Below the pieces are notes generated by a model that worked only from the letters and a program-made list of their open reading frames with translations, ran no database searches and was not told where the DNA came from. This document shows positions 2,814 to 7,356 of a DNA stretch of 11,923 bases, in pieces. The DNA lies in contig JAKAFQ010000073.1 of the NCBI GenBank assembly GCA_021817875.1, positions 1-11,923 of the forward strand, read 5' to 3'. The translations under genes and the position numbers were made by a program. The stretch comes from Pseudomonadota bacterium. Lineage in GTDB: Bacteria > Pseudomonadota > Gammaproteobacteria > Steroidobacterales > Steroidobacteraceae. The first letter of the stretch is position 1. Each line of letters begins with the position of its first letter.

Positions 2814-2870
2814 CCCCTGCTCAGGGGCCGGCGCGGCGAGTGCGCCGCCGGACGCCGTCTAGGCGTCCGG
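2814..2870 (-). terminator. Cluster of three GC-rich hairpins at the end of the paa operon
   Basis: Three inverted repeats lie side by side. The first has arms 2848-2856 and 2862-2870, 9 perfect base pairs, with a 5-base loop that contains the family-length paaZ stop codon. The second has arms 2833-2838 and 2843-2848 (6 pairs, 4-base loop); it shares base 2848 with the first, so the two outer pairs compete. The third has arms 2814-2818 and 2823-2827 (5 pairs, 4-base loop). None is followed by a T-tract, so this is not a textbook intrinsic terminator; it may aid termination or protect the mRNA 3' end. The structure is seen; the function is inferred from position. Confidence 0.45.
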
Positions 2871-2957
2871 CACGGCCTTCTCGCTCACCATGGTGAGCAC
2901 ATCGTAGGCGGCCACCGTCGCTCCGTCCTGATTGGTGATCCGCGTGTCCCAGCGCAC
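2859..2957 (-). pseudogene. paaZ: Orphaned C-terminal segment of paaZ beyond an in-frame amber codon
   Basis: Directly after the TAG at 2960-2958 the same frame stays open for 32 codons and ends at a second TAG (2861-2859). The encoded peptide starts VRWDTRITNQDG and ends MVSEKAVPDA. It matches the end of PaaZ proteins, where a V-x-W-x-x-x-V/I-x-N-Q segment and a Y-x-I/V-L-T-L/M-V segment form the last strands of the MaoC-type hydratase fold. With these residues the protein would be 680 amino acids from the ATG at 4901, almost the E. coli length (681). The segment has no convincing start site of its own. It is best read as the lost end of PaaZ, or as part of an intact gene if the amber is a sequence error. 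Confidence 0.85.
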
Positions 2958-4901
2958 CTAGCCATATCCCTGACCGATGCGCAGCGATTTCTCCTTGCAG
3001 GTGAGGCGCACCCGGATCCGATCGCCGGGTTTGACCGGTTGGGTGAAGCGCAGCCCGTCGATGCCGTAGTTGGCGAGCACCGTCCCGAGCGGCGGATCGA
3101 CGAACAGGCCGGCCGCCGCGGAGATCAGGAAATACCCATGCGCGACCCGGCCGCCGAACAGAGGATTGCGCCGGGCCGCCGCTTCGTCCATGTGCGCGTA
3201 GAAGTGATCGCCCGAAAGCGCGGCAAACCGCTCGATATCCTCGAGACTCACCTGCCGTTCGCCGGACTGGAAGGTCTCGCCGATCCGCAGCTCGCCGAAG
3301 GGCTTGCGGAACGGATGCACGCCCGGATCGAGCTGCCGCGATCCCCTGACCCAACGGCCGGTGACCGCCGTGAGCACGTCGGGGGTGCCCTGCACGGCCG
3401 TACGCTGCATGTAATGCAACACGCCGCGGATACCGCCCATCTCCTCGCCGCCGCCGGCCCGTCCCGGTCCGCCGTGCACCAGGTGCGGCAGCGGCGAGCC
3501 GTGGCCGGTCGAGTCCTTGGCGCAATGGCGGTTGACCACCAGCACCCGGCCATGAAACGGCGCGAGGCCGAGCACCAGGCGCGCCGCCACCGCATCGTCG
3601 CCGGTGAACACCGAGCTCACCAGGCTGCCGGCGCCGCGGCGCGCGAGCGCGATCGCCTCATCCACGTCCCGGTAGGGCACGACGGTGCTCACCGGACCGA
3701 ATGCCTCGACCTCGTGGACGGCTTTCGCCCGGGCGGCATCCCTGCAATACAGCAGCGTCGGGGCCACGAACGCGCCCCGATCGGCATCGGCCCCGGCCAG
3801 TGAGAGCGTGTCAGCGCGTCCGCAGATCACTTCGGCCTCGCGCTCGAGCCGCTCGACCTGCGCGAGCACCTCGCGCCGCTGCGCGAGCGAGGCCACCGGT
3901 CCCATCTTGACCTGTTCCTCACGCGGGTCGCCGACCACGATCCGCCCGAGCGCGGCGCGCAGCGCCTCGATGACCGCGGGGGCCGCGGCGGCCGGCACGA
4001 GCGCCTTGCGGATGGCGGTGCATTTCTGACCCGCCTTGACCGTCATCTCGCGCACGACCTCGCGGATGAACAGGTCGAATTCCGGCGTGCCCGCCGGCGC
4101 ATCCGGGCCCAGGATGCAGGAATTGAGCGAGTCGGTCTCCGCGGTGAAGCGCACCGAGTGATCGATCACCGCCGGATGCGTCCGCAGTCTGCGCGCGGTC
4201 GAGGCCGAGCCGGTGAACGCGACGCTGTCCTGACAGGTCAGGTGATCGAACAGATCCCCGACCGTGCCGCAGACGAGCTGCACCGCGCCCTGCGGCAGCA
4301 GGCCCGAATCGATGATCCGACGGAAGGCGAGCTCGGTGAGATAGGCGGTGGCGCTCGCCGGCTTGACGATCGCCGGCACCCCCGCGAGCAGCGTCGGGGC
4401 GAGCTTCTCGAGCATGCCCCACACCGGGAAGTTGAAGGCGTTGATGTGGATTGCCGCCCCCTCGAGCGGCACGTGGATGTGCTGGCCGAGGAAGTTGCCG
4501 GACTTCGAGAGCATCTCCACGGCGCCGTCGACGTACACGTGCCCATCCGGCAGCTCCTTCATCCCCTTGCTCGCGTACACGAACAGGGTGGCGATGCCGC
4601 CATCGATGTCGATCCACGAATCCGCGCGGGTCGCGCCAGTGGCGTACGAGAGTCGGTAGAGCTCTTCCTTGTGCTCGGTCAGATACCGCCCGAGCGCCTT
4701 CAGCTGCGCGGCGCGCTCGTGGAAAGTCAGCCGGCGCAGCGCCGGTCCGCCGACCGTGCGCGCATGATCGAGCATCGCCGCGAAGTCGAGTCCTTCGCTG
4801 CTGATGCTCGCGATGAGCTCGCCGGTGGTGGCGTCACGAAGCGAGGCGGCGTTGCCGCTGCCGGCCAGCCAGCGGCCGGCGATATAACTTTGCAATTGCA
4901 T
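2958..4901 (-). CDS. paaZ: PaaZ: oxepin-CoA hydrolase / 3-oxo-5,6-dehydrosuberyl-CoA semialdehyde dehydrogenase, truncated by amber stop
   Basis: PaaZ is the bifunctional ring-opening enzyme of phenylacetate catabolism. Its MaoC-type hydratase domain hydrolyses oxepin-CoA, and its NADP-linked aldehyde dehydrogenase domain oxidises the reactive aldehyde to 3-oxo-5,6-dehydrosuberyl-CoA. From the ATG at 4901 the aldehyde dehydrogenase domain spans about residues 1-515. It has ETDSLN with general-base Glu255 and AGQKCTAIR with nucleophile Cys294, followed by STGHGSPLPHLVHGGPGRAG, typical of PaaZ. The MaoC domain starts near 530 and has the SGDHFYAH motif (Asp565, His570). Translation stops at TAG (2960-2958) after 647 residues, 33 codons early, removing the last strands of the hydratase fold. 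The ATG aligns with the E. coli PaaZ start. A GTG at 4913, with AGGA 11 bases upstream, is the alternative. The gene is last in the operon, 63 bases after paaG. If the stop is real, hydratase activity is probably impaired while the dehydrogenase could still fold. Confidence 0.93.
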   Translation of the reverse strand: MQLQSYIAGRWLAGSGNAASLRDATTGELIASISSEGLDFAAMLDHARTVGGPALRRLTFHERAAQLKALGRYLTEHKEELYRLSYATGATRADSWIDIDGGIATLFVYASKGMKELPDGHVYVDGAVEMLSKSGNFLGQHIHVPLEGAAIHINAFNFPVWGMLEKLAPTLLAGVPAIVKPASATAYLTELAFRRIIDSGLLPQGAVQLVCGTVGDLFDHLTCQDSVAFTGSASTARRLRTHPAVIDHSVRFTAETDSLNSCILGPDAPAGTPEFDLFIREVVREMTVKAGQKCTAIRKALVPAAAAPAVIEALRAALGRIVVGDPREEQVKMGPVASLAQRREVLAQVERLEREAEVICGRADTLSLAGADADRGAFVAPTLLYCRDAARAKAVHEVEAFGPVSTVVPYRDVDEAIALARRGAGSLVSSVFTGDDAVAARLVLGLAPFHGRVLVVNRHCAKDSTGHGSPLPHLVHGGPGRAGGGEEMGGIRGVLHYMQRTAVQGTPDVLTAVTGRWVRGSRQLDPGVHPFRKPFGELRIGETFQSGERQVSLEDIERFAALSGDHFYAHMDEAAARRNPLFGGRVAHGYFLISAAAGLFVDPPLGTVLANYGIDGLRFTQPVKPGDRIRVRLTCKEKSLRIGQGYG

Positions 4902-4964
4902 GGCGGTGCTCACGTGTCGGTGTGTCCTGCCCGGGCGGGGCGCCCCGGAGCCTCGGTTGTGCGG

Positions 4965-5753
4965 CTATTTACCGCTGAATCGCGGCTCGCGCTTCTCCGC
5001 GAAGGCGGCCACCCCTTCGGCGTAATCGGCGCCGAAGCCGAGCTCGCGCTGGTAATCCCGTTCCACATCGAGCTGCTGCTCGAGCGAGCGTCCCCAGCTC
5101 TCCTGCAGCGCCTGTTTGGTGCGCGCCAGTGCGCGCGTCGGTGCGCAGGCGAGCTGGCGCGCGAGCGTGTCCACCTCGCCGGGGAAGTCCTCGTCGTCGA
5201 CGCAGCGCCAGATCAGACCCCAGTCCGCGGCCTGCTGCGCCGGCAGCTTCTCTGCGAGCATCGCCAGGCCGAGGGCACGCGCCGGACCGACCAGCCGCGG
5301 CAGGAACCACGTGCCGCCCGAATCCGGTATCAGGCCGATCCGCGCGAACGCCTGCACGAAGCTCGCCGAGCGTGCCGCCACGACCAGATCACAGGCGAGC
5401 GCGATGTTGGCGCCGGCTCCGGCAGCCACGCCGTTGACCGCGGCGATCACCGGCAGCGGCAGGCGCCGCAATGCCAGCACGAGCGGCTTGTAGCGCAGCT
5501 CGATGGACTCGCCGAGATCGGCCGCCGCCGCCCCCGGGGCCACGGCCCGATCGGCAAGATCCTGACCCGCGCAGAAGCCGCGGCCGGCGCCCGTGATGAC
5601 GAGCACGCGCGCCGCCGCGGTCTGCACCGCCGCGAGCGCGTCCCTCACCTCCGCGTGCATCGTGACGTTGAAACTGTTCAGGCGCTCCGGCCGGTTGAGA
5701 GTGAGCCGGGCGATTCCGCCCTTCATCTCCAGCAGAATGGTCTGATAACTCAT
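4965..5753 (-). CDS. paaG: PaaG: 1,2-epoxyphenylacetyl-CoA isomerase (oxepin-CoA forming)
   Basis: This crotonase-fold protein has 262 residues, the same length as E. coli PaaG. It converts ring-1,2-epoxyphenylacetyl-CoA to the seven-membered oxepin-CoA, the substrate of PaaZ. The CoA-binding and oxyanion-hole segments are visible: GAGRGFCAGQDL (55-66) and NGVAAGAGANIALACD (107-122). GLIPDSGGTW (140-149) carries Asp144, which aligns with the acid/base Asp of PaaG. The tail AAFAEKREPRFSGK matches the family end. The RPERLNSFN segment and the LDVERDYQRELG stretch favour PaaG over the dehydroadipyl-CoA hydratase PaaF. The start at 5753 is set by GGAGGA about 6 bases upstream; an in-frame ATG eight codons earlier (5777) has no comparable site. 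It lies 45 bases after paaE and 63 before paaZ in the same operon. Confidence 0.95.
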   Translation of the reverse strand: MSYQTILLEMKGGIARLTLNRPERLNSFNVTMHAEVRDALAAVQTAAARVLVITGAGRGFCAGQDLADRAVAPGAAAADLGESIELRYKPLVLALRRLPLPVIAAVNGVAAGAGANIALACDLVVAARSASFVQAFARIGLIPDSGGTWFLPRLVGPARALGLAMLAEKLPAQQAADWGLIWRCVDDEDFPGEVDTLARQLACAPTRALARTKQALQESWGRSLEQQLDVERDYQRELGFGADYAEGVAAFAEKREPRFSGK

Positions 5754-5798: not shown

Positions 5799-6866
5799 TC
5801 ATTTCTCATCGTAGTCGAGCTCGAGCTCAGCGCTTCGGCAGCGCGACTGGCACGCCAGCACATAACCCTGCGCGACTTCCCAGTCCTCGAGCGCATAGTT
5901 CTGGGCCATCTCGACCTCGCCGCGCACCACCTTGGTGCGGCACGTCGAGCACACGCCCGAGCGGCAGGAGTACGGCAGATCGAGGCCGGCGCGCTCAGCG
6001 GCCTCGAGCACGGTTTCCTCCTCGAGCCGCATTGAAAACGAGCGGCGCCGTCCGTCCAGGGTCACCGTCACCTGGGCAACACCCGCCGCGTGCGTTTCGG
6101 CCTCCGCGGGCCGGGCACCGGCGTGGGCGGCAGCGACCGCCGTGAAGTGCTCGATGCGGATCCGATCCGCCGCCACGCCGAGCTCCCCGAGGGATCCGGC
6201 CACCGTCTCAGCCATGTCTCCGGGCCCGCAGAGGAAATACTCGCTCACCTCCCGGGGCGCGAAGAACGCCGCACTCAGCTCGCGCACCTTGGCGGCGTCG
6301 ATCCGGCCGTTGTACAGCGCGATTTCCTGGGGCTCGCGGCTCATCAGAAAATGCAGCGACAGCCGCTCGAGGTAACGATCCTTCAATCGCTCGAGCTCCT
6401 CGAGGCCCATGGCGCGCGCGACGCTGCGGTTGCCGTAGAACACCAGCATCCGACCGCCCGCGCCGAGCACGGCCCGCACCACCGACAGCACCGGCGTGAT
6501 GCCGCTGCCCGCGGCGAAGGCGACGCGCAGGCCCCCGGCCGGCTCGAGGGAGTGCGGCGTGAAGCGGCCGCTCGGCGGCAGCACCTCGAGCGCATCGCCG
6601 GGGCGCAGTCCGCGCAGGAAACCCGACATGCGCCCGCCGGGCTGCACGCGCACCAGCGTGCGCAGCAGCCTCTCCCCCGGCGCGTTGACCAGGGAGTAAG
6701 TCCGACGGATCTGCTCGCCATCGATCAGGGCGCGCAGCACCACGTGTTGGCCGGGACTGGCGCGATAGACGTCCTCGAGCTCCGCGGGCACCTCGAGTGC
6801 GAGCGCGATCGCATCCTCCGCCTCGGGCTCGACCCGCACCACGCGCAACGAATGGAATTTCAGCAT
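5799..6866 (-). CDS. paaE: PaaE: reductase subunit of phenylacetyl-CoA 1,2-epoxidase
   Basis: PaaE (355 residues, as in E. coli) passes electrons from NADPH through FAD and a [2Fe-2S] cluster to the di-iron site of PaaA. An FAD-binding barrel (about 1-105) has RRTYSLVN at 54-61. A nucleotide-binding domain (about 112-245) has AAGSGITPVLSVV and the CGPGDM segment at 213-218. A C-terminal plant-type ferredoxin domain (about 265-355) carries cluster ligands Cys301, Cys306, Cys309 and Cys339 (C-x4-C-x2-C-x29-C). Domain order, with ferredoxin last, is that of PaaE-type oxygenase reductases. The ATG at 6866 is chosen because AGGA lies 5 bases upstream, only 7 bases after the paaD stop; a longer open frame upstream lies inside paaD. 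All cofactor residues are present. Confidence 0.97.
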   Translation of the reverse strand: MLKFHSLRVVRVEPEAEDAIALALEVPAELEDVYRASPGQHVVLRALIDGEQIRRTYSLVNAPGERLLRTLVRVQPGGRMSGFLRGLRPGDALEVLPPSGRFTPHSLEPAGGLRVAFAAGSGITPVLSVVRAVLGAGGRMLVFYGNRSVARAMGLEELERLKDRYLERLSLHFLMSREPQEIALYNGRIDAAKVRELSAAFFAPREVSEYFLCGPGDMAETVAGSLGELGVAADRIRIEHFTAVAAAHAGARPAEAETHAAGVAQVTVTLDGRRRSFSMRLEEETVLEAAERAGLDLPYSCRSGVCSTCRTKVVRGEVEMAQNYALEDWEVAQGYVLACQSRCRSAELELDYDEK

Positions 6867-6873
6867 GCCGGTC

Positions 6874-7356
6874 CTAGATGCACTTGAACGTGTCGAAGGG
6901 TTCGAGACACTCGTCGCAGCGATAATGTGCCTTGCAGGGCGTGGAGCCGAACTCGCTCGCGCGCTGCACGCGCGGGCTGCCGCAGCGGGGACAGACGATC
7001 CGCGCCGAAGGCTTGCGCTCCACGGCAATACCGAACGCCTCGAGCTTGCGCCGTCCCGCCTCGCTCACCCAGTCGGTGGTCCACGCCGGCCACAGCACCG
7101 TCTCCACCACGGCATCCGCGAGCCCCTGGCGCTCGAGCGCCTCGCGGATCGAGCGCTCGATCACTTCCGTCGCCGGACAGCCCGAGTAGGTCGGCGTGAT
7201 GCCGACGTGCAGCCGGCCATCGTCCGCCCGGCGCACGTGGCGCACGATGCCGAGCTCGACCACGCTCACCACCGGGATCTCCGGGTCCATCACGGTGGCG
7301 AGCGCCTCCCAGGCCTGCCGCTCGAGCGGATCGGCCCGGGACGAGTCGCTCACCAT
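6874..7356 (-). CDS. paaD: PaaD: iron-sulfur/assembly accessory protein of the phenylacetyl-CoA epoxidase
   Basis: This 160-residue protein has an N-terminal MIP18/SufT-like (DUF59) domain. MDPEIPVVSVVELGIVR is at 23-39, and the TPTYSGCPATE motif holds conserved Cys60. A C-terminal zinc-ribbon-like part has CPRC (122-125), YRCDEC (145-150) and the ending PFDTFKCI. This arrangement matches E. coli PaaD (165 residues). DUF59 proteins act in Fe-S cluster delivery, and PaaD is thought to mature the PaaE cluster or the oxygenase complex; it is needed in vivo but is not a subunit of the purified enzyme. The ATG at 7356 overlaps the end of paaC by 7 bases. A GTG at 7353 forming a GTGA overlap is an alternative. 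Both imply translational coupling to paaC. Confidence 0.95.
   Translation of the reverse strand: MVSDSSRADPLERQAWEALATVMDPEIPVVSVVELGIVRHVRRADDGRLHVGITPTYSGCPATEVIERSIREALERQGLADAVVETVLWPAWTTDWVSEAGRRKLEAFGIAVERKPSARIVCPRCGSPRVQRASEFGSTPCKAHYRCDECLEPFDTFKCI

Follow-up and report, generated by a model that had tools for sequence, protein, structure and literature searches.

An in-frame amber codon in the hydratase half of a bacterial paaZ gene: probable recent nonsense mutation, with consensus error as the main rival

INTRODUCTION

In Escherichia coli, the core of the PaaZ hexamer is built by the hydratase domains of the enzyme, according to excerpts of the structural study (PMC6739347). The formation of tropone requires the hydratase without the dehydrogenase (excerpts of PMC7497051). 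Premature-stop alleles as such are not rare in bacteria, since 28 of 325 nonsynonymous de novo mutations in B. fragilis were premature stops in a study cited in an eLife 2024 article (PMC11379459, in the part consulted).

Here, we describe a paaZ gene interrupted by an in-frame TAG in a window of 11,923 nucleotides, by which we mean the whole stretch of DNA analyzed. The best homolog among the proteins listed, P0002, is full length (680 residues) and 99% identical over query residues 200 to 684 (485 residues). The two-domain layout is shared with PaaZ of E. coli K-12 (PDB 6jql), the match to which spans P0002 residues 2 to 674. From the position equivalent to the stop, Val648 by alignment (with an inferred 7-residue tag offset), the E. 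coli protein runs on for 34 residues without a stop.

RESULTS

The paaZ frame contains an in-frame stop

The paaZ frame opens with GTG at position 4913, 651 codons before the TAG (Table 1). An ATG at 4901, four codons inside the GTG, is the likelier start, as in P0002, and 647 codons precede the TAG when counted from there. On the minus strand, the codon context at the stop is GGC TAG GTG (TAG at 2960 to 2958), which confirms the original prediction that PaaZ is cut 33 codons early: residues 652 to 684 of the normal protein (33 residues) fall at or after the stop. The tail that follows was said to be recognizable and undecayed, and it is; 32 codons lead to a second TAG, and their sole mismatch with P0002 is at residue 658. 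This second TAG is the normal end of paaZ, with 14 of 19 distinct relatives stopping at the same residue and the other five 1 to 3 residues later.

Table 1. Positions of paaZ, its parts, and the two neighboring genes that end with TAG
Feature	Position	Strand	Basis or remark
paaZ reading frame (bifunctional oxepin-CoA hydrolase/semialdehyde dehydrogenase)	2859..4913	-	ORF list, homolog P0002
Aldehyde dehydrogenase domain, residues 16-505, complete	3399..4868	-	Pfam PF00171, 214.2 bits
MaoC hydratase domain in truncated product, residues 544-643	2985..3284	-	Pfam PF01575, 86.2 bits
Codon 611, Thr versus Pro in 120/120 listed homologs	3081..3083	-	Hydratase half, 41 codons before stop
In-frame TAG, codon 652 from GTG (648 from ATG)	2958..2960	-	Glu in 120/120 listed homologs
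Undecayed PaaZ C-terminal tail past stop, 32 codons	2862..2957	-	One difference from P0002
Second TAG, normal paaZ end	2859..2861	-	Ends of distinct relatives
paaG	4965..5753	-	Ends with TAG
paaD	6874..7356	-	Ends with TAG

Upstream of paaZ, the same strand carries frames that correspond in position to paaG, paaE, paaD, paaC, paaB, and paaA in the loci of relatives, placing the gene in a paa cluster. The names paaE and paaA are backed by matching records or sources; the names of the other cluster genes are presumptive. After paaZ, on the same strand, come a small heat-shock-like protein (2202 to 2615) and then lon protease (1 to 2199, cut by the window end), each matched in 15 of 21 relatives' loci.

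Relatives carry a sense codon at the position of the stop

We searched proteins with the read-through frame, placing X at the stop and scoring residues 200 to 684, and considered the best 120 of 8000 scored candidates (those sharing the most words), a listing that lower-ranked early-ending proteins would escape. Within these best 120, the stop column is Glu in every protein and none ends early at this position. The genomic copies of paaZ that reach the codon, 93 distinct stretches left from 112 loci after removal of identical matched stretches, have Glu in 91 cases and Val in 2, in line with the prediction of a sense codon here. The protein and locus sets partly overlap, and the counts are therefore not independent.

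A strong paaZ match was obtained from 95 of 217 genomes of the family, the other 122 giving none at E ≤ 1e-150. The position of the stop was covered by 88 of the 95 matches (seven fall short), and the TAG was found in none of these 88, nor in any of the 93 distinct loci. No internal stop was counted in the 95 strong matches, by a counter run without a positive control. Two loci (L046 and L057) seemed to have internal stops, but these map to query residues 679 and 681, close to where the gene normally ends, and were set aside. The closest DNA among the 217 genomes was 85% identical, with 58 genomes of one genus giving the same top place, and no genome of the same species was found in this set. 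Plasmid records with a match (n = 79) were each 60 to 80% identical.

The stop is thus truly present in the sequence and abnormal for the PaaZ family. Had many PaaZ proteins ended at this position, the original prediction would have fallen, and none did (0 of the 120 listed, 0 of 95 genomic matches), so that a natural early end of the family is unsupported. As is characteristic of a nonsense allele, the stop is absent from close relatives, whether listed proteins, genomic copies, or family genomes. The literature searched, which is not exhaustive, contained no report of a premature stop codon in paaZ.

TAG is a terminator in neighboring genes

We examined where the two other TAG-ending genes of the cluster terminate in relatives. 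The window paaG ends at exactly the same residue as in 18 of 18 distinct relatives with an identified stop, and the window paaD as in 16 of 16. In these relatives, the terminator is TAA or TGA in 13 of 18 cases for paaG and in 11 of 16 for paaD, and TAG in the remainder. Since both genes end with TAG at ends that relatives conserve, TAG is a true stop here and terminates translation in the source organism. This rules out amber codon reassignment, which the original prediction had already thought unlikely on account of these two genes.

The stop removes the last strands of the hydratase domain

The truncated product contains the N-terminal aldehyde dehydrogenase domain (PF00171) of a bifunctional PaaZ but not the complete C-terminal hydratase fold, despite the PF01575 match. 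We placed the stop on an AlphaFold2 model of the intact P0002, predicted as a single chain (mean pLDDT, 86.9; 89 to 94 in the blocks covering residues 611 to 670 and 78 in the last block). The model has four long hydratase strands, at residues 608 to 619, 628 to 641, 646 to 656, and 662 to 673, and the stop falls at residue 648. It would therefore cut the penultimate strand, and the last two of the four would be lost, which agrees with the expectation that the missing residues form the last strands of the MaoC-type hydratase. In an alignment with E. coli PaaZ, the counterparts of catalytic D561 and H566 and of CoA-binding R613, as given in the excerpted source, all precede the stop.

Judging from the model, the truncated hydratase half should neither fold nor work. 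The dehydrogenase half may also be affected, because hydratase domains make up the hexamer core in E. coli.

Window-only changes cluster in the hydratase half of paaZ

We compared the window with columns that are invariant across 21 loci (two pairs of which represent the same contigs twice), using columns with at least eight hits only. Departures from these columns ranged from 0 to 3.7% across twelve genes: lon, 4 of 465; hsp20, 2 of 55; paaZ, 5 of 344 (1.5%); paaG, 1 of 123; paaE, 3 of 129; paaD, 1 of 61; paaC, 2 of 117; paaB, 0 of 64; paaA, 2 of 207; paaX, 1 of 99; petA, 1 of 125; and an E2-like gene, 3 of 81. Eleven residues of paaE differ between the window and P0122, its 97% identical relative; none of them is at an invariant column, and neither sequence departs alone at any of the 129 invariant columns. 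With these low departure rates and the lack of lone departures in paaE, a generally poor window sequence is unlikely.

Three of the five paaZ departures are common to P0002. The other two, codon 611 and the stop, are window-only departures; no departure is private to P0002. The two sequences differ at six residues in all, three of which (611, 652, and 658) lie within the last 74. Arg 658 looked at first like a third private change, being found in 0 of the 120 listed proteins, but 4 of 96 genomic stretches (the same loci, with minus-strand matches not turned and some places counted twice) carry it, and it is for that reason no sign of error or decay. The pair formed by codons 611 and 652 could reflect a short stretch of poor consensus around 2958 to 3083, which is possible; a relaxation of constraint in the hydratase half would fit the same pattern.

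Relatives encode a further MaoC-domain protein near paaZ

In all nine near genomes searched, we found at least one MaoC-domain match besides paaZ. In seven of the nine, such a match is on the paaZ contig, 15 to 18 kb away. By best local alignment, the neighboring MaoC protein in three relatives is 28 to 31% identical to the PaaZ hydratase, and its sequence does not make it evidently an oxepin-CoA hydratase. A back-up hydratase is not apparent from this comparison, in which only this distant protein stands near paaZ in the three relatives read. In one locus (L113), the stand-alone MaoC protein at 6779 to 7237 is followed by a frame that resembles a CoA-ester lyase.

DISCUSSION

The TAG is best explained as a recent nonsense mutation, private to the strain, in an otherwise normal paaZ, disabling the oxepin-CoA hydratase. 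We put the probability of this reading at roughly 0.58; our weighting of the competing explanations rests partly on judgment. Translation would halt at codon 652 and yield a protein of 647 residues from the ATG. Its aldehyde dehydrogenase half would be complete, and its hydratase half, with the catalytic Asp and His still present, would lack the last two of four long beta strands. If the base is real, the hydratase would be dead, and the phenylacetate pathway of the source strain would likely stall at oxepin-CoA. CoA intermediates may then build up, as the original interpretation supposes. A hydratase disabled in this way would not supply the formation of tropone, which depends on it (PMC7497051, in the part consulted). 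The second window-only change, at codon 611, falls in the same hydratase half and fits relaxed constraint there. The tail is too young to offer evidence of decay in either direction. Taken as a whole, the original interpretation is partly supported.

The main rival is an error of base calling or assembly, with the organism's real paaZ being intact, and we hold this to be a serious if distinctly less probable explanation. It would account for an observation that speaks against a mutation: codons 611 and 652, the sole invariant paaZ columns at which the window alone departs, stand within 42 codons of each other, as a short stretch of poor consensus would give. In addition, none of the contigs that encode P0002, the nearest protein, is longer than 11,611 bases, and the window itself may well be a metagenome contig. 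Against an error, the stop site has no homopolymer, the other tested reading frames in the window are open and depart little from invariant columns, and paaE shows no window-only departure at its 129 such columns when set against P0122.

Readthrough ranks next, at some distance, and we regard it as improbable. By this explanation, a suppressor tRNA or leaky termination would yield full-length PaaZ, perhaps with a hydratase-less form alongside. In its favor, the tail past the stop is undamaged, and cells with a stop inside a gene of the pathway should grow less well on phenylacetate. An intact tail would, however, also be left by any new mutation, and paaG and paaD carry TAG at ends that relatives conserve. 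The 101 nt of RNA 3′ of the stop fold no better than shuffled sequences (z = 0.73), and the window contains no Rfam family at gathering scores and no tRNA gene. The stop is missing from all relatives examined, and therefore no conserved recoding was seen; programmed readthrough, which would call for a conserved stop, an RNA structure, or an Rfam family, was rejected.

We consider it more doubtful still that a division of labor has been established, in which PaaZ is kept as a dehydrogenase only and another hydratase opens oxepin-CoA. This reading presupposes a real mutation and is one particular form of our preferred explanation, with which it overlaps. Bacteria with PacL and a separate hydratase would be a precedent, as split arrangements are known (PMC7497051, in excerpt), and the additional MaoC-domain match in all nine near genomes is compatible with it. 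The low identity (28 to 31%) of the MaoC neighbor to the PaaZ hydratase in three relatives argues against it, as does the position of the L113 protein beside what is presumably a CoA-ester lyase-like frame. All nine near genomes, moreover, retain a full PaaZ frame without a stop, and a cut within a domain does not make a clean single-domain protein. Least probable of all is that the strain is midway in splitting a formerly fused ring-opening step, the hydratase half of PaaZ being lost (codons 611 and 652) because another hydratase now opens oxepin-CoA or because a halt at oxepin-CoA supplies a different product.

If the nonsense mutation is real, the strain would be a natural variant without the hydratase half of PaaZ and would let the folding and function of the dehydrogenase be tested without a complete hydratase core. 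A single unconfirmed paaZ allele changes little, and the finding is an ordinary one. Like other bacterial nonsense alleles, it has one stop, after which the sequence has not decayed, and relatives carry the gene intact; unlike those of B. fragilis, it is known from one sequence. Further parallels are the Phaeobacter inhibens protein PaaZ2 and the Streptomyces protein TrlA, in which likewise just one of the two PaaZ halves is present or works (excerpts of PMC7497051). These proteins have retained the hydratase, and their dehydrogenase half is the one that is defective or absent, whereas in the window paaZ it is the hydratase that is cut, so that the allele, if real, would be the reverse of the dehydrogenase-defective PaaZ2.
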